A stretch of DNA of 13,008 nucleotides from Pseudomonadota bacterium (lineage in GTDB: Bacteria; Pseudomonadota; Gammaproteobacteria; Burkholderiales; Burkholderiaceae), in the NCBI GenBank assembly GCA_021783435.1, contig JAJXUC010000112.1, positions 1 through 13,008 of the forward strand, given 5' to 3'. The notes below the pieces were generated by a model. It was not told the origin of the DNA. It saw nothing but the letters and a program-made list of their open reading frames with translations, and did not search any database. Below are positions 594-12,385 of this stretch, piece by piece. A program made the translations under genes and the position numbers. Every line of letters starts with the position of its first letter. The first letter of the stretch is position 1.

Positions 594-1556
594 CTACAAG
601 CTGCGCTCGAGCTGCTGTTCGAGTTCGTCGAGGATGCGGTAACAGGGCAAGACCTGCGCCACGCTGGCATTCGGTTCGCGCCCCTCGCGAATCGCCGCAA
701 AGAACTCACGATCCTGCAGCTCGATCCCGTTCATGGAGACATCGACCTTGGAGACATCGATTTTTTCATCTTTGCCGGTGAACAGATCGTCGTAGCGGGC
801 GATGTAGGTTCCGTTGTCGCCGATGTAGCGAAAGAAGGTGCCCAGCGGGCCATCGTTGTTGAAACTGAGCGACAAGGTGCAGATCGCCCCACTGGCGGCC
901 CTGAGTTGAATCGACATGTCCATCGCGATGCCGAGCGTTGGGTGGATCGGGCCCTGGATGGCATGGGCCTCGACAATCGGTGAACGGGCCTGATACGCGA
1001 ACAAATCCACGGTGTGCGCGGCGTGATGCCACAGCAGATGGTCGGTCCAACTGCGCGGTTGACCCAGCGCGTTCATGTTGGTGCGGCGGAAAAAGTAGGT
1101 TTGCACGTCCATCTGCTGGATGTTCAATGCGCCGGCCACGATGCGCTGCCGGACCCATTGGTGGCTGGGGTTGAAACGGCGCGTGTGGCCACACATCGCC
1201 ACCAGCCCGGTGCGCTGCTGCAGATCGACCACGGCCTGCGCGCCCTGCAGGCTGTCGGCCAGTGGAATTTCCACCTGCACATGCTTGCCCGCGCCCAGGC
1301 ATTGAAGGGTTTGGGCCGCATGCATCGGGGTGGGGGTGCAGAGAATCACGGCATCCACCTCGGGAATGGCCAGGCTGGCTGCAAGATCCGTGGTGACATG
1401 CGGGATCGCAAATCGGGCCGCCACTTCGTGCGTCTTGTCCAACTCGCGACCGACCAGCGAGATGACCTCGACGCCATCGATGTTCCCGATGCCATCGAGA
1501 TGCTTGATGCCGAATGCGCCCGCCCCGGCGAGCGCGACCTTGATTGTCTTGGCCAT
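594..1556 (-). CDS. pmdC/ligC: 4-carboxy-2-hydroxymuconate-6-semialdehyde (CHMS) dehydrogenase
   Basis: This cytosolic enzyme oxidises the ring-cleavage product CHMS, as its cyclic hemiacetal, to 2-pyrone-4,6-dicarboxylate with NAD(P)+. The 320-residue protein belongs to the Gfo/Idh/MocA dehydrogenases: an N-terminal Rossmann fold with GAGAFG at residues 11-16, VILCTPTPMHA near 70-80, then a C-terminal alpha/beta domain with the LLWHHAAHTVDLF segment. Where most Gfo/Idh enzymes have EKP, this one has EIP (residues 96-98). I believe this is usual in LigC-type CHMS dehydrogenases, which oxidise a hemiacetal. The start follows the pmdB stop after one base, so the genes are translationally coupled. 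It is the last gene of the pmdDABC block and is followed by a hairpin. Identity is secure from family features and context. Confidence 0.96.
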   Translation of the reverse strand: MAKTIKVALAGAGAFGIKHLDGIGNIDGVEVISLVGRELDKTHEVAARFAIPHVTTDLAASLAIPEVDAVILCTPTPMHAAQTLQCLGAGKHVQVEIPLADSLQGAQAVVDLQQRTGLVAMCGHTRRFNPSHQWVRQRIVAGALNIQQMDVQTYFFRRTNMNALGQPRSWTDHLLWHHAAHTVDLFAYQARSPIVEAHAIQGPIHPTLGIAMDMSIQLRAASGAICTLSLSFNNDGPLGTFFRYIGDNGTYIARYDDLFTGKDEKIDVSKVDVSMNGIELQDREFFAAIREGREPNASVAQVLPCYRILDELEQQLERSL

Positions 1557-1557
1557 A

Positions 1558-2844
<1,287 letters not shown>

Positions 2845-2848
<4 letters not shown>

Positions 2849-3783
2849 CGCTCCACTTCAGGCCAGTACAGGCGCATCGGGTTGTCCACCAGCAGCTTGC
2901 GCTGCAGTTCCGGGGTGACGGCAATATGGGGAATGAAATCCACCAGCAGCCCATCGTCGGGCATGTGGTCCTTGAGGTTCGGATGCGGCCAGTCCGTTCC
3001 CCACAACACCCGGTCGGGAAAGGTTTCCACGATGCGCCGGGCAAACGCCACCACGTCCCGATAGGCGCTGCGCTCACCAAGCAGCGCCGCAGGTCCGGAC
3101 ACGGTCAGGCGCTCCGGGCAACTGACCTTGCTCCAGACGTTGGGATGCTCGCGCATGAACTGCACGAACAAGGAGAACTCGGGCCCGTCGAGGGGCTGGC
3201 TGACGTCCGGCCGTCCCATGTGATCGACCACGACGGTGGTCGGCAGCGCCGTGAAGAACTCCCACAGATCGGGCAGATCCCGAGCCTCGAAGTAAATCAC
3301 GACATGCCAGCCCAGACCGGCGACGCGCGCGGCGATCTCCATCAATTCATCCTTGGGCGTGAAATCCACCAGGCGCTTGACGAAGTTGAAGCGCACGCCA
3401 CGCACGCCGGCCGCATGCAACTGGAGCAGGTCGGCGTCGCTGATGTTGCGCTTCACCGTGGCCACCCCGCGCGCCATACCCCCGCTGTGCAGCAGGGCAT
3501 CGACCATGGCGCTGTTATCGGCGCCGTGGCAGGTGGCCTGCACGACGACGTTGCGAGCAAAGCCGAGGTGGTCGCGCAACGCGAACAACTGCTCTTTCGA
3601 GGCGTCACAGGGCGTGTATTTGCGTTCCGGCGCGAAGGGAAAAACCGCGCCAGGGCCAAAGACATGGCAGTGCGCGTCGACCGCGCCTGCGGGAACTGCG
3701 AACCGTGGCTTGCTGGGATTGGCATACCAGTCGAGCCAGCCGGGCGTTTGAACGAAAGGATGCGTCGTGATCGTGGATGACAT
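2845..3783 (-). CDS. pmdD/ligI: 2-pyrone-4,6-dicarboxylate (PDC) hydrolase
   Basis: This enzyme hydrolyses the lactone PDC to 4-oxalomesaconate. The 312-residue protein is an amidohydrolase-superfamily TIM barrel of the metal-independent LigI type. The HxH at residues 38-40 (DAHCHVFGPG), Arg131 and Arg137 (VRFNFVKR), His188 (VVVDHMGRPD) and the catalytic Asp264 (WGTDWPHPN) match the LigI pattern. The first residues MSSTITTHPF form a short extra N-terminal tail. The ATG at 3783 has no recognisable Shine-Dalgarno sequence. It is the first gene after a 330-bp gap and so may have its own promoter; it overlaps pmdA by four bases. Assignment is firm from motifs and order. Confidence 0.97.
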
Positions 3784-4113
3784 GGAGCGATGGAGTGTCT
3801 TGAAGATGCGCGCGAACGGAGATCAGCACCGACCCGGACGAGGATGATCGGCTGGATGAAGGCGGATCAAGGCGGAATGCCGGCTCTGGATGCCGGCAGT
3901 CGGCATGCCCACTCCCGCCATCCGGGCTTCTCCATCATTGCATGGGCCCCAGCGTTGCGGCGGTGAACCATGCCCGCCACTGCAGGTAGGACGGACGATG
4001 GCTGTCACGCTGGCCAGGGTACGGGGCGAGTTTCCTGGATCGCAGAAAACCGGTGAAGCGAACAGCTTGACCAAACCGGAGCAGCCCCCGGATAGGATAC
4101 CCGGTGCCAGCCA
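3784..4113. other. 330-bp gap between the dehydrogenase gene and pmdD, rich in short repeats
   Basis: I see no convincing gene here. The possible short frames lack a ribosome binding site and resemble nothing known. The pmdD-proximal half is full of short repeats (ATGCCGGC twice, CGGCAT, and tandem CCGCCTTGAT / CCGCCTTCAT on the minus strand). No good -35/-10 pair for pmdD was found. The gap splits the pmd genes into a UEF-plus-dehydrogenase block and a DABC block, so it may hold a regulated promoter, an attenuator or a processing site. That is inference. Confidence 0.6.
3877..3906 (-). repeat. ATGCCGGC repeat cluster able to form alternative hairpins
   Basis: ATGCCGGC occurs at 3877-3884 and 3890-3897, with an inverted CGGCAT at 3901-3906. 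Because GCCGGC is self-complementary, the two copies can form a 7-bp stem (TGCCGGC/GCCGGCA) with a 7-nt loop, or the second copy can pair with CGGCAT instead. It lies about 95-125 bp upstream of the pmdD start, in its leader or promoter region. Function is unknown: a regulator site, a weak terminator or a dispersed repeat are all possible. Confidence 0.5.
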
Positions 4114-5079
4114 TCATGCTTGCGCTGACTTGCCGCGGTCGGCGAGGATGCGGTCGGCCTCGGTGCGCCAGTCGGCGCTGCGCGCGAACGCGGCGGCGCC
4201 CCGGGAGCCGAACACACCCGCATCGGCCAGGTCCGCAACCCACGCCTGGCGCTCGGCCGTGCCCTGCGCAGACCAGGGCGTGAGCCCGATCTCACGCACG
4301 GTCTCGGCCACCTCCCGGACCTCCTCGGCACGGCGGCGTCCATGCTCGATGACCCGCTGGAAAAAATAGGCAGCCTGCTTTTCCCAATCGATGCCGGGAA
4401 AGGTTTCCTGGAGCGAGGCGACAACGGCGTCTTCGACACCGTAGGCGCGCGCCGTGGTGAAACTCTCGATGACCATCGCCTCCAGGCCCTTGATCATCAC
4501 GCTGCGGCACATCTTTGTCGCCGAAGCGACGCCGAGCGTGGCGCTGGCGACCTGAGCCTTGAAGCCGAGCAGGGCGAGCAAGGGTTGCAGAGTGGCGGCA
4601 TGGCTGCCGCCCAGCAGCAGTGGCACGCGCAGGCGGTAGGGCGGGACCGATGTCATGACCGCCGCTTCGACATATCGGCCGCCTGCGGCATCGATCCCTT
4701 CGGCGGCGCGCTGCTTCGCCCCTGGTGAAGCCGAGTTGAAGTCAAGAAACCAGGCGCCATCCCGGATCGCCGGCGCGCAGGCCTGGGCCGCACGCACAGT
4801 CTGGCTGGCGGTCACGGCGCAGACGATGCAATCGGCTGCCGCCGCCAGTTCGGCATGGGACGCCGCCAGCCTCACGCCATGAGCCGCGGCATGCTCACGC
4901 AGCGCCGCCTCGGCGCTCGAACCGAGCTTGGAGTCGTAGGCCGTGACACGCGCCACGCCCGCCGCCCGGAGATCCTCGGCCAGAATGCGGCCGACCTCGC
5001 CATAACCGACGAGGCCGACATGCCACTGCAACGGGTCGCTGGCCACGACCTTGGCGCCCAAGCCGGATTCAGTCGACAT
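4114..5079 (-). CDS. NAD(P)-binding dehydrogenase, 6-phosphogluconate/3-hydroxyisobutyrate dehydrogenase-like with DUF1932-type C-terminus; role unknown
   Basis: This 321-residue protein has an N-terminal Rossmann domain ([18 protein letters not shown], GxGxxG at residues 25-30), a [12 protein letters not shown] segment typical of the beta-hydroxyacid dehydrogenase substrate loop, and a helical C-terminal domain with [21 protein letters not shown]. That last segment carries the candidate catalytic lysine and resembles DUF1932 proteins. It should bind NAD(P) and act on a hydroxy or keto acid in the cytosol. The chosen ATG (5079) overlaps the pmdF stop by 11 bases, so the two are co-translated; its ribosome binding site is poor. 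It is not one of the known enzymes of PCA 4,5-cleavage. It could act on a pathway hydroxyacid or ketoacid, detoxify a side product, or serve a related aromatic substrate. The fold is confident; the reaction is unknown. Confidence 0.9.
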
Positions 5080-5752
5080 ACCGGAGGCCCGCCTTTTCAA
5101 GCGGCTCGCGCATCTTGTACATGTCCAGGCCGAGCACCCCGGCGGCGAGTTTTTCGCGTTTGAGCACCTCGTTGTCCTCGCGTGCCTGGGCCGCATCGGC
5201 CGTCTGCCGGGCCATCGCGGCCGGGACGATGACCACGCCGTCGTCGTCAGCGACCACCACGTCGCCGGGGTTCACCAGCGCTCCGGCGCAGACAACCGGG
5301 ATGTTGACCGAACCGATCGTCGCCTTGATGGTGCCCTTGGCGCTGATGGCCTTGCTCCACACGGGAAACGGCATCGCGGTCAGTTCCTTCACGTCGCGCA
5401 CGCCGGCGTCGATGATCAGACCTTTGGCGCCACGCGCACGGAAACTGGTGGCCAGCAAATCGCCGAAGTAGCCATCGGAGCAATCGGCGGTCACGGCGGC
5501 CACAACCACATCCCCAGGCTGGATTTGTTCAGCCACGACATGCAGCATCCAGTTGTCACCGGGTTGCAGGAGCACGGTGACCGCCGTGCCGCACACATGC
5601 GCATGGTTGTAGATGGGCCGCATGTACGGCTTCATCAGTCCGATCCGGCCCATGGCTTCGTGGAGCGTGGCCACTCCGTAGCGTGCCAAGGCCTCGACCG
5701 CAGCGCGATCGGGGCGCTGCACATGGCGTTTGACGATGCCCAGTTGGTTCAT
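5069..5752 (-). CDS. pmdF/ligK: 4-carboxy-4-hydroxy-2-oxoadipate (CHA) aldolase / oxaloacetate decarboxylase
   Basis: This is the last step of the pathway: cleavage of CHA to pyruvate and oxaloacetate by a divalent-metal class II aldolase, usually with oxaloacetate decarboxylase side activity. The 227-residue form begins [13 protein letters not shown], which lines up with the usual start of LigK/ProA proteins and has GAAGGA nine bases upstream. An in-frame ATG at 5776 (MAFEGQTD, 235 residues) overlaps the pmdE stop as TGATG and also has a purine-rich AGGGGA in front, so the longer form is possible. Visible active-site residues in the shorter numbering are Asp98 (GDLLATS), Arg119 and Asp120 (AGVRD), with the conserved [12 protein letters not shown] near the C-terminus. 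Identity is firm; the start is the uncertain point. Confidence 0.95.
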
Positions 5753-5775
5753 GTCGGTTTGTCCTTCGAATGCCA

Positions 5776-6801
5776 TCACAGTCCCCTGGCCTGCAGGGCG
5801 GCATGCAGACGGGGGTAGACGCGGCGCGCATTGCCTTCGTAGATCTTGAAGCGCTGCTCCGGGTCGATGGCGGCGGCTTCGACGTAGCGCTTGGTGTCGT
5901 CGTAGGGATGGCCCGTGGTGGGGTCGATGCCGCGCACGGCGCCGATCATTTCGCTGGCGAACACGATGTTGTCGATCGGGATGACCCGGGTCAGCAGGTC
6001 GATGCCGGGTTGATGGTAGACACAGGTGTCGAAGAAGATGTTGTTGAGCAAGTGCTCCTGCAGCAACGGCTTCTTCAACTCTTGCGCCAGGCCGCGAAAG
6101 CGCCCCCAATGGTAGGGAACCGCCCCGCCGCCGTGGGGGATCACGAATTTGAGCGTTGGGAAATCCTTGAACAGATCGCCGGCCAGGCACTGCATGAAGG
6201 CGGTGGTGTCGGCGTTCAGGTAGTGCGCTCCGGTGGTGTGGAAACAGGCGTTGCAACTGGTGCTGACATGGATCATGGCGGCCAGGTCGTACTCGACCAT
6301 CTTTTCATAAATCGGGTACCAGTGGCGGTCGGTGAGCGGCGGTTCCTGCCAGTGCCCGCCGGAAGGATCGGGATTGAGGTTGATGCCGACAAAGCCGTAA
6401 TCGTTCACGCACCTCTCGATCTCGTGAACGCAGGTTTTCGGATCGACGCCCGGCGACTGCGGCAGCATCGCGGCACCGATGAAGTGATCCGGGAAGAGTT
6501 GCGAGACACGGTAGCAAAGCTCGTTGCAGATGCCGGCCCAGGTGCTGCTGGTGTTGAAGTCGCCGATGTGATGCGCCATGAAACTCGCGCGCGGCGAGAA
6601 GATCGTGAGATCGGAACCTCTCTGGCGCATGAGCCTGAGCTGATTGCTCTCGATCGACTCGCGCAACTCGTCGTCACTGATCCGCAGATCCGCGACCTTG
6701 GGCCCAAGCTCGGGGGTGCTCAGGTTGGCGATCTGGAGCTTTCGCCAGTCCTCCAGCGCTTTGGGGGCGGTCGTGTAGTGGCCGTGGCAATCGATGATCA
6801 C
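5776..6801 (-). CDS. pmdE/ligJ: 4-oxalomesaconate (OMA) hydratase
   Basis: This enzyme adds water to the tautomerised 4-oxalomesaconate to give 4-carboxy-4-hydroxy-2-oxoadipate. The 341-residue protein is a zinc-dependent amidohydrolase-superfamily TIM barrel (cog3618/LigJ type). Its residues match the published LigJ active site at identical numbers: zinc ligands His6 and His8 (DCHGH), His178 (MIHVS) and Glu284 (FASEM), plus His223 (IPHGGG). The start codon is GTG at 6801-6799 and overlaps the pmdU stop as GTGA, so translation is coupled. Its stop meets the possible upstream start of pmdF. In Comamonas a transporter gene, pmdK, sits between pmdU and pmdE; here they overlap directly. Assignment is very secure. 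Confidence 0.97.
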
Positions 6802-7889
6802 GGTTGGTTTCCTTTCCAGATGGATGCGGGGATCATGACCTCGCCCCGCATCAACAGGCGCGCCGTGCGCAGCAGCGCAGCGCGCGTGACGTTCTGGGGG
6901 TTGTCCGGATCGAGTCCGAGTTCGACGCCGAATTCACCTGTCGGGTGCTCCACGGACATGGTCTTGGTCGCACCGCCGGGCATGATGGCCATGCCGGCGC
7001 AGACGGAACCGTCGAGCACGCAGGCCGTGGCCACCGTGACGGCGGCCAGCACGCCGATGGCGTCATGGCAGACATGCGGGATGAAGCTGCGGGTGCAGAG
7101 ACTGCCGCCCGCGCGTGGCGGCGCGATCAGGGTCATCTTGGGATAGTTCCTGGCGGACACGTCGCCCAGCCCCATGGCGTGGCCGCAGGCCAGACGCAAC
7201 CGTTCGAGGCGGACCTTGAGCTCGACATCGGCATTGAGCTCGGCTGCGCTTTCGTAGCCCGTGCAGCCGAGGTCCGCCGCCCTGAACAAGACCAGGGGCA
7301 TGCCGTTGTCGATGCAGGTCACTTCGACACCGTCGATGACATCGCGCACATGGCCGGTGGGCAGCAGCCCCGCACAGACCGAGCCGGCGGTCTCCAGAAA
7401 TTGGATGGCGATCGGCGCCGCGGTTCCCGGAACGCCGTCGATCCGCGCATCGCCCTCGTAGGCCACCTGACCCCCTGGCGTCTGCACGGTCACATCGCAT
7501 TGCATGTCGGTGTTGCGCGTCAGCACACGCAAGGTGGTGGTCGCGCCTTCGGGTACGACCAGGCCCGTTTCCAAGGCGAACGGGACGACTGCGGCAAGCA
7601 TGTTGCCGCAGTTCGGGGTGGTATCGACCTTGTCCTGGTCGGGTTGCAGTTGCGCGAAAAGAAAGTCGAGATCGACTCCGGGCACCTGGCTGCGACGCAC
7701 GATGCCGACCTTGCTGGTCAGGGGGTGCGCGCCACCCAAGCCATCGATCTGGCGCTTGTCGGGCGAACCCATCACGGCCAGCAGGACGCGATCGCGTGTG
7801 GCAAGGTCGGAGGGCAGGTCGGCCTCATTGAAAAATGGGCCTCTCGACGTCCCCCCGCGCATAAAGAGGCAGGGAATCGGTGTTTGCAT
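6798..7889 (-). CDS. pmdU/ligU: 4-oxalomesaconate tautomerase (PrpF superfamily)
   Basis: This enzyme isomerises the double bond of 4-oxalomesaconate to give the substrate of the hydratase PmdE. The 363-residue protein is of the PrpF/GalD type with two diaminopimelate-epimerase-like halves. The N-terminus MQTPIPCLFMRGGTSRG is typical. Lys60 (HPLTSKVGIV) and Cys94 (TTPNCGNM) keep the 34-residue spacing of the catalytic Lys66/Cys100 that I recall for LigU. GFO-type or crotonase domains are absent. It is the first gene of the catabolic operon, 84 bp after the LysR regulator on the same strand, with a good promoter in that gap, and it overlaps pmdE by four bases. Methylaconitate isomerase (PrpF) is the main alternative, but the context rules strongly for OMA. 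Confidence 0.95.
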   Translation of the reverse strand: MQTPIPCLFMRGGTSRGPFFNEADLPSDLATRDRVLLAVMGSPDKRQIDGLGGAHPLTSKVGIVRRSQVPGVDLDFLFAQLQPDQDKVDTTPNCGNMLAAVVPFALETGLVVPEGATTTLRVLTRNTDMQCDVTVQTPGGQVAYEGDARIDGVPGTAAPIAIQFLETAGSVCAGLLPTGHVRDVIDGVEVTCIDNGMPLVLFRAADLGCTGYESAAELNADVELKVRLERLRLACGHAMGLGDVSARNYPKMTLIAPPRAGGSLCTRSFIPHVCHDAIGVLAAVTVATACVLDGSVCAGMAIMPGGATKTMSVEHPTGEFGVELGLDPDNPQNVTRAALLRTARLLMRGEVMIPASIWKGNQP

Positions 7890-7973: not shown

Positions 7974-8924
7974 TCACGATTTGTTATGGTCGCGCCCACT
8001 CGCACGCAGCAACAACAAGCCGCCGAGCATGCGCATGACGTGGCGCATCAACGGGGTCATCGGCTTATGCGCCGAGGCTGCCAGGCACATTTTGCTGACG
8101 AGGCGCGGCTTGACCAGTGGGCGCACGCGGAACACCTGGGATTGCCCCGTGGCAATCACGGCGCCCTGGCTGAGGACGGCGTGGCCATGGCCGAAACGCA
8201 CCAGGTCGAGAATGGACGGCACACCCGACACTTCCCAGGCGATCTGCAGTTTGAAGCCTGACAGAGCGGCCTGCGCCTCCACCAACTTACGGATGACGTG
8301 CGTGCGATCCGGGATGATCAAGGGATAGTCTGCGAGTTCGGCAAAGGGCATGGCGGCATCAACGCGCAGGCGCGATGCCTGCCGTGATGCGCGGCCAGCG
8401 GCGGGCGCCACCGCCGGACTCACCAGGCACAGCGGCTCATCGAGCAGTGGATGGAGTTCGATGGCTGCGCCCGGTTCGGGATTGAGCAGCACCCCGATAT
8501 CCACGCGCCCGGTGGCAATCCATTCGGTGATGTGGGTGGACAACCCCTCGACGATGGTCAACTGCGCTTTCGGCAGGTCTTCACGAAAGCATTCCACCAG
8601 GGGCAGCGTGACGAGGCGCCCTACACTCGGGGTCAGGCCGATCACCACCTTTCCGGAGGGCTCATCCCTCCCGCTCTCCACGTCTTCGCGTGCTTGTGCA
8701 ACAAGCTGCAGGATGCCCACGCTGTGGCTGAACAGACGCTTGCCGGCTTCGGTGAGGATGACCCCGCGCCCGGTGCGTTGCAGCAACTGGGCGCGCAAAT
8801 CGGTCTCCAACAAACGCACTTGGCGGCTCAAGGCCGGTTGGGCAATGTCCAGCACGATCGACGCCTTGCTGAAGCTGCCGAGCTCTGCGACCCGCACGAA
8901 GTATTCGAGCTGTTTGAGGTTCAT
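7974..8924 (-). CDS. LysR-type transcriptional regulator, probable regulator of the pmd (PCA 4,5-cleavage) genes
   Basis: The 316-residue protein starts MNLKQLEYFVRVAELGSFSK, with a winged helix-turn-helix over about residues 1-60 (ASIVLDIAQPALSRQVRLLE as recognition region) and a periplasmic-binding-protein-like effector domain from about residue 90 to the end. The ATG at 8924 has GGGGGAGG close upstream; in-frame codons farther upstream are not conserved LysR sequence. It lies 84 bp before pmdU and points the same way, whereas many LysR regulators are divergent from their targets. By position it is the likely counterpart of PmdR or LigR, which respond to PCA. The effector and the sign of control are inferred, not seen. 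The C-terminal tail (LLLLRASGRDHNKS) is variable. Confidence 0.92.
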   Translation of the reverse strand: MNLKQLEYFVRVAELGSFSKASIVLDIAQPALSRQVRLLETDLRAQLLQRTGRGVILTEAGKRLFSHSVGILQLVAQAREDVESGRDEPSGKVVIGLTPSVGRLVTLPLVECFREDLPKAQLTIVEGLSTHITEWIATGRVDIGVLLNPEPGAAIELHPLLDEPLCLVSPAVAPAAGRASRQASRLRVDAAMPFAELADYPLIIPDRTHVIRKLVEAQAALSGFKLQIAWEVSGVPSILDLVRFGHGHAVLSQGAVIATGQSQVFRVRPLVKPRLVSKMCLAASAHKPMTPLMRHVMRMLGGLLLLRASGRDHNKS

Positions 8925-9136: not shown

Positions 9137-11417
<2,281 letters not shown>

Positions 11418-11451
11418 GTACCGGGCCGGCACTCGACAGCACCGATGCAAG

Positions 11452-11883
11452 TTATTCGCCGAGTGTCAACTGAACGTCGATATTGCCGCGCGTTGCATTG
11501 GAGTAGGGGCAGACCTGGTGGGCTGCGTCCACAAGGTCTTGCGCCGCGGCGCGATCCATGCCCGGCAGATGGATGACCATCTTCACGGCAATGCCAAATC
11601 CAGCCGGGATCGGACCGATGTCGACGCTGGCGTCGATCGAGGCGTTCGCTGGAACCACCACTTTCTTCATGCCGGCCACATGCTTCATGGCTCCCATGAA
11701 GCATGCGGAATATCCAGCGGCAAAAAGCTGCTCCGGGTTGGTGCCGTTGCCGGCACCGCCCATGACCTTGGGCGGTGAGAGCTTGACCTCGAGCAAACCA
11801 TCATCGGTCACGGAGCGGCCTTCACGCCCTCCGGTGGTATGCGCATGCGCGGTGTAAACAACCTTGTCGAGTTTGGTGGTCAT
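11452..11883 (-). CDS. ohr: Organic hydroperoxide resistance protein (Ohr), thiol peroxidase
   Basis: This protein reduces organic and lipid hydroperoxides in the cytosol, using a cysteine pair recycled by lipoylated proteins. The 143-residue protein is full length for the Ohr/OsmC family. Peroxidatic Cys61 (AAGYSACFMGAMKHVA), resolving Cys125 (VCPYSNATRGNIDV), Arg20 (GGREGRS) and Glu51 (NPEQLFAAG) are all present. The ATG at 11883 has AGGA eight bases upstream. It lies 37 bp downstream of ohrR on the same strand with no operator-like palindrome between them, so it is probably co-transcribed from the ohrR promoter. It converges with pobR, leaving 34 bp and no obvious terminator. It has no link to aromatic catabolism other than general oxidative stress. 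Confidence 0.97.
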   Translation of the reverse strand: MTTKLDKVVYTAHAHTTGGREGRSVTDDGLLEVKLSPPKVMGGAGNGTNPEQLFAAGYSACFMGAMKHVAGMKKVVVPANASIDASVDIGPIPAGFGIAVKMVIHLPGMDRAAAQDLVDAAHQVCPYSNATRGNIDVQLTLGE

Positions 11884-11920
11884 GGTGACGTCCTGGGGTT
11901 GAAGAAAAAGGCCAAGAAAA

Positions 11921-12385
11921 TCAGGTGAGCAAGTGCTGCCGAAGCACTTGAATGTCCTGACGAAGGGCAAGCAACTCGGGCACGGAGCACTGGCTGCGGG
12001 CGACGATATGCCCGGGGATCTTCGCTGCGGAAGCTTTCAACGCACGCCCCGCAGCACTGAGCTTGACACGCACGCAGCGCTCGTCGTTCACATCGCGCAG
12101 GCGGGTCATCAGACCTGCCGCTTCAAGACGCTTGAGCAGGGGCGTCAAGGTTCCGGAGTCCAGAAGAAGCCGCTCCCCCAGACTCGACACGGTCAGGCCG
12201 TCGGTTTCCCACAAAACCAGCATCACAAGGTACTGGGGGTAGGTCAGCCCGAGTTTGGCGAGCAAGGGCTTGTACACCTTGGTCATGGCCAGCGACGCGG
12301 AATACAAGGCAAAGCAAACTTGATTGCCGAGCAGCAGGGATTGATCGGCTTTGGCCGTCTTCGTTGTCGCAGTCGTGTCCGTCAT
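11921..12385 (-). CDS. ohrR: MarR-family organic hydroperoxide sensor-repressor OhrR (two-cysteine type)
   Basis: OhrR represses ohr until an organic hydroperoxide oxidises its reactive cysteine. The 154-residue protein matches Xanthomonas OhrR: reactive Cys24 (GNQVCFALYSA), the tyrosines Tyr38 and Tyr49 (Tyr36/Tyr47 in Xanthomonas, offset two), and a second cysteine Cys133 (RSQCSVPEL) suited to the intersubunit disulphide of two-Cys OhrR. The winged helix covers about residues 60-110 (VSSLGERLLLDSGTLTPLLKRLEAAGL, wing DVNDERCVRVKLS), with an additional Cys104 in the wing. The ATG at 12385 has no ribosome binding site and lies only seven bases after the predicted -10, so the mRNA may be leaderless. 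The operator overlaps its promoter, so it is autoregulated. Confidence 0.96.
   Translation of the reverse strand: MTDTTATTKTAKADQSLLLGNQVCFALYSASLAMTKVYKPLLAKLGLTYPQYLVMLVLWETDGLTVSSLGERLLLDSGTLTPLLKRLEAAGLMTRLRDVNDERCVRVKLSAAGRALKASAAKIPGHIVARSQCSVPELLALRQDIQVLRQHLLT

Follow-up and report, generated by a model that had tools for sequence, protein, structure and literature searches.

Why should an operon for the 4,5-cleavage of protocatechuate (PCA) carry a dehydrogenase gene for which the established route to pyruvate and oxaloacetate has no need? The question is raised by a stretch of DNA of 13,008 nucleotides (hereafter the window), comprising positions 1 to 13,008 of contig JAJXUC010000112.1 (assembly GCA_021783435.1) from a member of the Burkholderiaceae. 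Within it a gene for a dehydrogenase of the DUF1932 family (4114–5079, minus strand; 321 aa) lies between the gene for LigK/PmdF (5069–5776, minus strand), the 4-carboxy-4-hydroxy-2-oxoadipate (CHA) aldolase/oxaloacetate decarboxylase, and that for a LigI/PmdD-type amidohydrolase (2845–3783, minus strand), presumably the 2-pyrone-4,6-dicarboxylate (PDC) hydrolase. The surrounding enzyme set is that of the Comamonas pmd operon, with which, according to excerpts of PMC10154247, PCA is converted to pyruvate and oxaloacetate in six enzymatic steps; these excerpts, and those of a comparison of PCA 4,5-cleavage clusters (PMC8431788) and of PMC6592069, name no DUF1932-family dehydrogenase. Among the matches listed in the open-access literature, none dealt with this gene or with DUF1932 function. 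Here we describe a conserved linkage between the DUF1932 gene and the last steps of PCA 4,5-cleavage and gallate degradation, and we consider it rather probable that its product acts somewhere at the level of 4-oxalomesaconate (OMA) and CHA.

Genomic linkage of DUF1932 with the PCA 4,5-cleavage and gallate pathways

Linkage was assessed in two draws of genomes, from the order and the phylum of genome G005, taken as Burkholderiales and Pseudomonadota. The 398 Pseudomonadota genomes held 58 PF09130 (DUF1932) loci in 50 genomes, in which 149 RraA-like loci were listed, and for 36 of the 58 a LigK/RraA-type gene was at most 5 kb away, where 0.35 were expected (38 within 10 kb, 0.71 expected), an enrichment of about 100-fold. 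For the control, the PF14833 domain of ordinary beta-hydroxyacid dehydrogenases, 0 of 150 loci (the best 150 of 207) had an RraA-like gene that close, and on these two figures a chance neighbour was rejected. In the Burkholderiales draw (349 genomes; cut-offs of E<=1e-90 for LigB, the dioxygenase beta subunit, and E<=1e-60 for DUF1932), LigB was present in 32 genomes, DUF1932 in 20 and both in 14 (P = 4e-12), and in all 14 the two were on one contig within 14 kb of each other. Because the genomes are related (several are from Bradyrhizobium, and locus L133 and Rhizobium daejeonense have near-identical clusters), the P values overstate independence; the effect is large despite this. The remaining six Burkholderiales genomes had DUF1932 (44–56% identity; one copy with an internal stop) without LigB at the cut-off; LigJ and LigK were near it in L096 and L099, LigJ in L100, and neither in L097, L098 and L101, two of which are short contigs.

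The arrangement itself was followed in a GTDB contig scan for relatives, from which the best 80 of 406 loci, leaning to Bradyrhizobium and Burkholderiales, were surveyed; an order counts as kept when no other reference gene intervenes. So defined, the order LigK, DUF1932, LigI was kept in 23 of 23 full PCA 4,5-cleavage operons, in two of which (L017 and L067) LigK and DUF1932 are separated by other sequence of about 1 kb. Ten further loci were operons of the same type cut by contig ends, 16 were GalB–LigK clusters, one had GalB without LigK and three had LigI as the only recognised neighbour. Five genomes with loci of the last kind, or with no reference gene beside DUF1932, all had LigK elsewhere, in a GalB–LigK–decarboxylase–VOC cluster without DUF1932. 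The preliminary description of this locus, made from the sequence alone, had named the neighbourhoods of pmdF/ligK in other genomes as the place to look for co-occurrence and a lack of conserved association as the result that would speak against it; the full operons and the phylum-wide loci leave no doubt that the association exists.

The segment of the pathway that is shared

To establish which genes accompany DUF1932, 28 of the 38 loci within 10 kb of an RraA-like gene (near loci) were read, and 15 of the 20 far loci were fetched; gene labels in these loci, and in the six Burkholderiales genomes without LigB described above, are best tblastn matches to reference proteins rather than curated annotation. 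The 28 near loci contained a LigK-type aldolase in 27 cases, a hydratase in 27 (LigJ in 12, GalB in 15) and a tautomerase in 20, compared with LigI in 16, LigC, the 4-carboxy-2-hydroxymuconate-6-semialdehyde (CHMS) dehydrogenase, in 15 and LigB as best match in 14. LigK was present with both LigC and LigI absent in 11, and with no recognised dioxygenase in the stretch in four; Tct or SDF transporter genes were found in seven. Annotated galB-galC-galD operons on plasmids of Sodalis, Klebsiella and Pantoea end with a DUF1932 gene whose product is about 42% identical to the window protein and, unlike the window, these stretches have no LigC or LigI annotated. Rhizobium daejeonense has the order GalB–GalC–DUF1932–TctA–TctC–TctB–tautomerase, and Thermus a PIG-L/LigK/DUF1932 cluster with an 11 bp overlap. 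A LigK–DUF1932 pair in Azospirillum lipoferum was considered as a minimal module and set aside, as the PmdU-like fragment alongside suggests a decayed operon.

The linkage of DUF1932 with the last pathway steps thus extends over alpha-, beta- and gammaproteobacteria and to Thermus. What these clusters have in common is the segment from OMA to CHA, shared by PCA 4,5-cleavage and gallate degradation; they do not all involve CHMS and PDC, and they serve different aromatic substrates. Because both LigC and LigI are missing from 11 LigK loci, neither CHMS nor PDC is likely to be the substrate in common, and the occurrence of the family in gallate operons likewise makes a PCA-specific role on either compound unlikely. 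The OMA/CHA level is therefore the favoured site of DUF1932 action, so that of the substrates proposed in the preliminary description OMA and CHA are retained and the list is narrowed at the expense of a role confined to PCA. The three roles suggested there (action on a pathway hydroxyacid or ketoacid, salvage, and extension to another substrate) all stay candidates.

Enzyme class and conserved residues

The reading from 5079 to 4114 is uninterrupted, begins with ATG and ends with TGA, and its product contains a PF03446 NAD_binding_2 Rossmann domain (41.6 bits, cut-off 21) ahead of PF09130 DUF1932 (68.6 bits, cut-off 25), which places it in the DUF1932 family and confirms the intact NAD(P)-binding dehydrogenase between pmdF and pmdD that had been reported. 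All 7999 scored candidates of a homology search matched at E<=1e-3, so that chance is no explanation for the open reading frame; the top two matches (among the best 120 of 7999) were 98% and 92% identical. An AlphaFold2 model (40 sequences; mean pLDDT 89.0, pTM 0.81) matched first 4ezb (Sinorhizobium meliloti), 3qsg (Alicyclobacillus acidocaldarius) and 1i36 (MTH1747), DUF1932 proteins that are 28–37% identical to the window protein and were all deposited without an assigned function, and then 3-hydroxyisobutyrate dehydrogenases (HIBADH) and gamma-hydroxybutyrate dehydrogenases.

Lys189 aligns with the lysine of the HIBADH motif K-x-x-N-N, with Arg192-Ser193 in place of the two Asn residues, so that the protein shares both the fold and the lysine of the beta-hydroxyacid dehydrogenase superfamily. 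Among 157 homologues, drawn from the loci of this analysis and hence leaning to lig/gal-linked genes, K189 was kept in 157, R192 in 155, S193 in 156, K197 in 157, H246 in 156, R249 in 157 and R250 in 155, all of them present in the window protein; R242 is also among the key residues, which are retained in 151 to 157 of the 157. Within the DUF1932 domain H246, R249 and R250 could, with R192, serve to bind carboxylates. Asp49, which closes the second strand, was found in 154 of 157; an Asp in this position usually marks a preference for NAD over NADP and suggests that the window protein prefers NAD. Sequence and fold together point to an NAD-linked hydroxyacid dehydrogenase.

The protein differs from the known groups nearest to it. 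Unlike HIBADH and gamma-hydroxybutyrate dehydrogenases, the window protein has Arg-Ser for Asn-Asn behind the lysine, and it has no match at E<=1e-3 to PF14833, the domain of ordinary beta-hydroxyacid dehydrogenases; it missed the cut-off of the 3-hydroxyisobutyrate dehydrogenase equivalog TIGR01692 (39.8 of 291.6 bits), and no NCBIfam subfamily model reached its cut-off. Imine reductases have Asp or Tyr in place of the catalytic Lys, as does 6smt, with Asp where the window protein has Lys189, and with Lys in 157 of 157 homologues an imine reductase is not indicated.

Contexts outside LigK operons

Several observations weigh against a role tied to the LigK pathway. Twenty-two of the 58 PF09130 loci have no RraA-like gene within 5 kb, and in the survey of 80 loci 15, some on short contigs, had no reference gene, while in 12 a gene resembling that for 4,5-dihydroxyphthalate decarboxylase was the sole recognised neighbour. 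Four of 19 genomes chosen to cover the different contexts had a close DUF1932 without a true LigK. A tricarballylate-type (Tcu) cluster with DUF1932 was seen in a stretch without an aldolase; in Priestia, Methylobacterium and Aminobacter RraA proteins stand beside DUF1932 or close to it in contexts other than aromatic degradation, and in Shinella HZN7 it has none of these neighbours. Finally, 18 of the 32 LigB-positive Burkholderiales genomes have no DUF1932 match at the cut-off used, so that the step is optional; this agrees with the earlier statement that the established PCA route does not need the gene, which is apparently dispensable. The LigK–DUF1932 association is, in short, strong and not absolute.

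In ten genomes outside the PCA-operon type LigC was absent at E<=1e-25 (0 of 10), and a LigB relative (47%) was found in one of 10 at E<=1e-15. Bradyrhizobium loci of the L030 type have a TetR gene, then the decarboxylase-like gene, homologous to 4,5-dihydroxyphthalate decarboxylase (9jp7; the L034 copy matches with E 7e-28), then DUF1932, which overlaps it by 1 bp. The decarboxylase homologue (L030 9150–10019, plus strand; L034 9129–9998, plus strand; L085–L089) is also a regular member of Bradyrhizobium GalB–LigK clusters, and it forms a TetR–decarboxylase–DUF1932 mini-operon in LigK-less genomes. DUF1932 occurs in TcuA–TcuB clusters in L128 (3390–8962) and in L163 and L166 (two of the 15 far loci fetched), accompanied in L128 and L163 by an isocitrate/isopropylmalate-type dehydrogenase. 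Six more of these far loci (L152–L157) matched no reference protein, DUF1932 queries included, at E<=1e-12, and are probably a separate, more distant DUF1932 subfamily with another context; in L161 only a short-chain dehydrogenase/reductase query matched at that threshold. A gene fldX of a Sphingomonas fluorene cluster may also belong to the family. The best common denominator of the contexts would be tricarboxylates.

Proposed role and alternatives

From these observations we infer a hydroxy-tricarboxylate substrate, an oxidative direction and a role alongside the neighbouring enzymes. The DUF1932 branch of the beta-hydroxyacid/6-phosphogluconate dehydrogenase superfamily would work on the segment common to PCA 4,5-cleavage and gallate degradation, with substrates at the level of the C7 oxo-tricarboxylates OMA, its isomer 2-keto-4-carboxy-3-hexenedioate (KCH) and CHA. 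NAD+-dependent oxidation of a hydroxy-tricarboxylate would give OMA, KCH or CHA, which the neighbouring tautomerase, hydratase and LigK would then convert to pyruvate and oxaloacetate. The hydroxy acid might arise in the cell, where housekeeping dehydrogenases would reduce OMA or CHA and DUF1932 would salvage the product, or it might be imported by the neighbouring Tct/SDF tricarboxylate transporters. That an NAD-dependent DUF1932 enzyme oxidises the hydroxy form of OMA, KCH or CHA to the oxo acid is, in this full form, a tentative proposal. More speculative, and on balance doubtful, is the wider idea that bacteria of at least two phyla use DUF1932 as a so far undescribed enzyme of gallate degradation and PCA 4,5-cleavage. 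It would be an NAD-dependent hydroxy-tricarboxylate dehydrogenase through which imported or self-made acids gain a second, non-aromatic way into the OMA/CHA segment, and its Tcu-linked cousins would do the same for tricarballylate-type acids. HMG/CHA (4-hydroxy-4-methyl-2-oxoglutarate/CHA) aldolase genes are reported, in an excerpt of PMC5065237, also from species without PCA or gallate clusters, their role there being unexplained, which leaves room for an aldolase–dehydrogenase pair with a function outside aromatic degradation.

Oxidation at the OMA/CHA level has to be weighed against other readings of the same loci. DUF1932 might oxidise a beta-hydroxy (tri)carboxylate to a beta-keto acid from which an RraA/LigK-type or decarboxylase-like partner removes CO2. 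Such chemistry is the norm in the superfamily, and it would account for the RraA partners in Priestia and Methylobacterium, the 1 bp overlap with the decarboxylase-like gene in Bradyrhizobium and the isocitrate/isopropylmalate-type dehydrogenase adjoining DUF1932 in a Tcu cluster. LigK-type enzymes, moreover, decarboxylate oxaloacetate, as stated in the excerpt of PMC5065237. We nevertheless consider this unlikely, as the intermediates from OMA to pyruvate are established and include no secondary beta-hydroxy acid, the hydroxyl of CHA being tertiary. The enzyme might equally be imagined to run reductively, using NADH to reduce OMA, KCH or CHA and so to guard against overflow or to balance redox; dehydrogenases are reversible, and the evidence from context and residues is the same. 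Diverting the main flux into a hydroxy acid would bring no obvious gain, however, and Asp49, in suggesting NAD(H) over NADP(H), argues weakly for catabolic oxidation, so that reduction as the normal direction seems rather improbable.

A place upstream of PCA, for example as a dihydrodiol or alicyclic-acid dehydrogenase yielding 4,5-dihydroxyphthalate or PCA, would suit the 12 loci with the 4,5-dihydroxyphthalate decarboxylase homologue, and in two such genomes that were searched (G007 and G010) neither a true LigK nor a match to LigB or LigC was found. The galB-galC-galD-DUF1932 operons and the clusters without a recognised dioxygenase need no such step, and neither the open reading frame list nor Pfam revealed a ring-hydroxylating dioxygenase next to the window operon; we regard this place as quite improbable. 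As a second CHMS dehydrogenase, a PDC-acting enzyme or a substitute for the OMA tautomerase, DUF1932 would be well placed, since it adjoins LigI in all 23 full operons, LigC is missing from all ten DUF1932-carrying genomes of the Bradyrhizobium type, outside the PCA-operon type, and PmdU, the tautomerase, is absent from eight of the 23. Each part of this is very improbable: LigC and LigI are both absent from 11 of the 27 LigK-linked near loci, the window has both LigC and PmdU beside DUF1932, and PmdU (at least 56% identity) was found in 3/14 DUF1932-positive versus 5/18 DUF1932-negative LigB genomes (P = 1), so that there is no mutual exclusion. That DUF1932 is a bystander, kept by accident or for some other purpose, would fit the LigB genomes that lack it and is hardly credible given the enrichment beside LigK/RraA genes, which extends over several gene orders and to Thermus, and the retention of R242, K189, R192, K197, H246, R249 and R250.

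Organization of the window

The operon that contains the DUF1932 gene runs on the minus strand in the order LysR, PmdU-type tautomerase, LigJ, LigK, DUF1932, LigI, LigA, LigB, LigC. Neighbouring genes overlap or are 1 bp apart, except for LysR–PmdU (84 bp) and DUF1932–LigI (330 bp). The stop codon of LigK occupies 5071–5069, so that the 11 bp overlap with pmdF claimed in the preliminary description holds if translation of DUF1932 starts at the ATG at 5079, and is replaced by a 22 bp spacer if it starts at an in-frame GTG at 5046; since this alternative exists and aligned relatives mostly start about 12–15 residues into the 321 aa reading, the overlap is probable rather than certain; tight coupling of the gene to pmdF is supported. 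The 330 bp gap (3784–4113, minus strand) holds, as comparison with L005, the closest relative (DUF1932 92% identical to the window copy), shows, the remnant of a transporter gene of the major facilitator superfamily (MFS). In the same place L005 has an intact gene for a 442 aa transporter (MFS_1; 11047–12375), and the gap is 81% identical to an internal part of it over 68 columns and 70% identical to its 3' end and the spacer behind over 246 columns.

Four operon products passed curated models: LigK (TIGR02798, 408.7 bits, cut-off 304.5), the PmdU/GalD-type 4-oxalomesaconate tautomerase (6798–7889, minus strand; NF033377, 537.1 bits, cut-off 440) and the alpha and beta subunits of PCA 4,5-dioxygenase, LigA/PmdA (2402–2848, minus strand; TIGR02792, 225.9 bits, cut-off 108.6) and LigB/PmdB (1558–2400, minus strand; PF02900; NF009903, 560.9 bits, cut-off 317). 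The names of three others are those we presume from operon position and from general knowledge of such operons, beside the Pfam class: the LigJ/PmdE-type amidohydrolase and OMA hydratase (5776–6801, minus strand; Amidohydro_2, no NCBIfam match), the LigI/PmdD-type protein (Amidohydro_2) and the LigC/PmdC-type Gfo/Idh/MocA dehydrogenase (594–1556, minus strand; PF19858 and PF01408), presumably the CHMS dehydrogenase. For the LigI-type protein no NCBIfam LigI model passed, which is why its name rests on its place; the best model was 4-sulfomuconolactone hydrolase (206.5 of 500 bits), and the protein is 79–90% identical to the one in the same place in 23 related operons. The LysR-type regulator (7974–8924, minus strand; PF00126 and PF03466) heads the operon. 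A PmdU-type tautomerase (at least 56% identity) is missing from 24 of the 32 LigB-positive Burkholderiales genomes, where OMA isomerization must be spontaneous or due to another protein. Many PCA 4,5-cleavage operons end, behind LigC, with an aldo/keto reductase gene (L001 12168–13190, L091, L092, L095, L106, L107, L131 and others), a second redox gene to which no known step corresponds; the window showed no such gene.

Beyond the operon lie a gene for 4-hydroxybenzoate 3-monooxygenase (PobA; 9211–10389, minus strand), by virtue of which the window spans the route from 4-hydroxybenzoate to central metabolism, a divergent AraC-type regulator gene (10446–11417, plus strand), and an OsmC-family gene (11452–11970, minus strand; Pfam) adjoining that for a MarR-family regulator (11921–12385, minus strand), a pair that we take to be possibly of the Ohr/OhrR type.

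Implications

The PCA 4,5-cleavage and gallate pathways are regarded as complete and are used to convert lignin-derived aromatics into products. The retention of a redox gene beside their last steps across proteobacterial classes and in Thermus suggests that these pathways include an as yet unassigned redox reaction, whether a missing step, a leak needing repair or an extra substrate. If our proposal is true, it would provide a short, testable list of candidate substrates for DUF1932, a domain with three crystal structures to which no function has been assigned.
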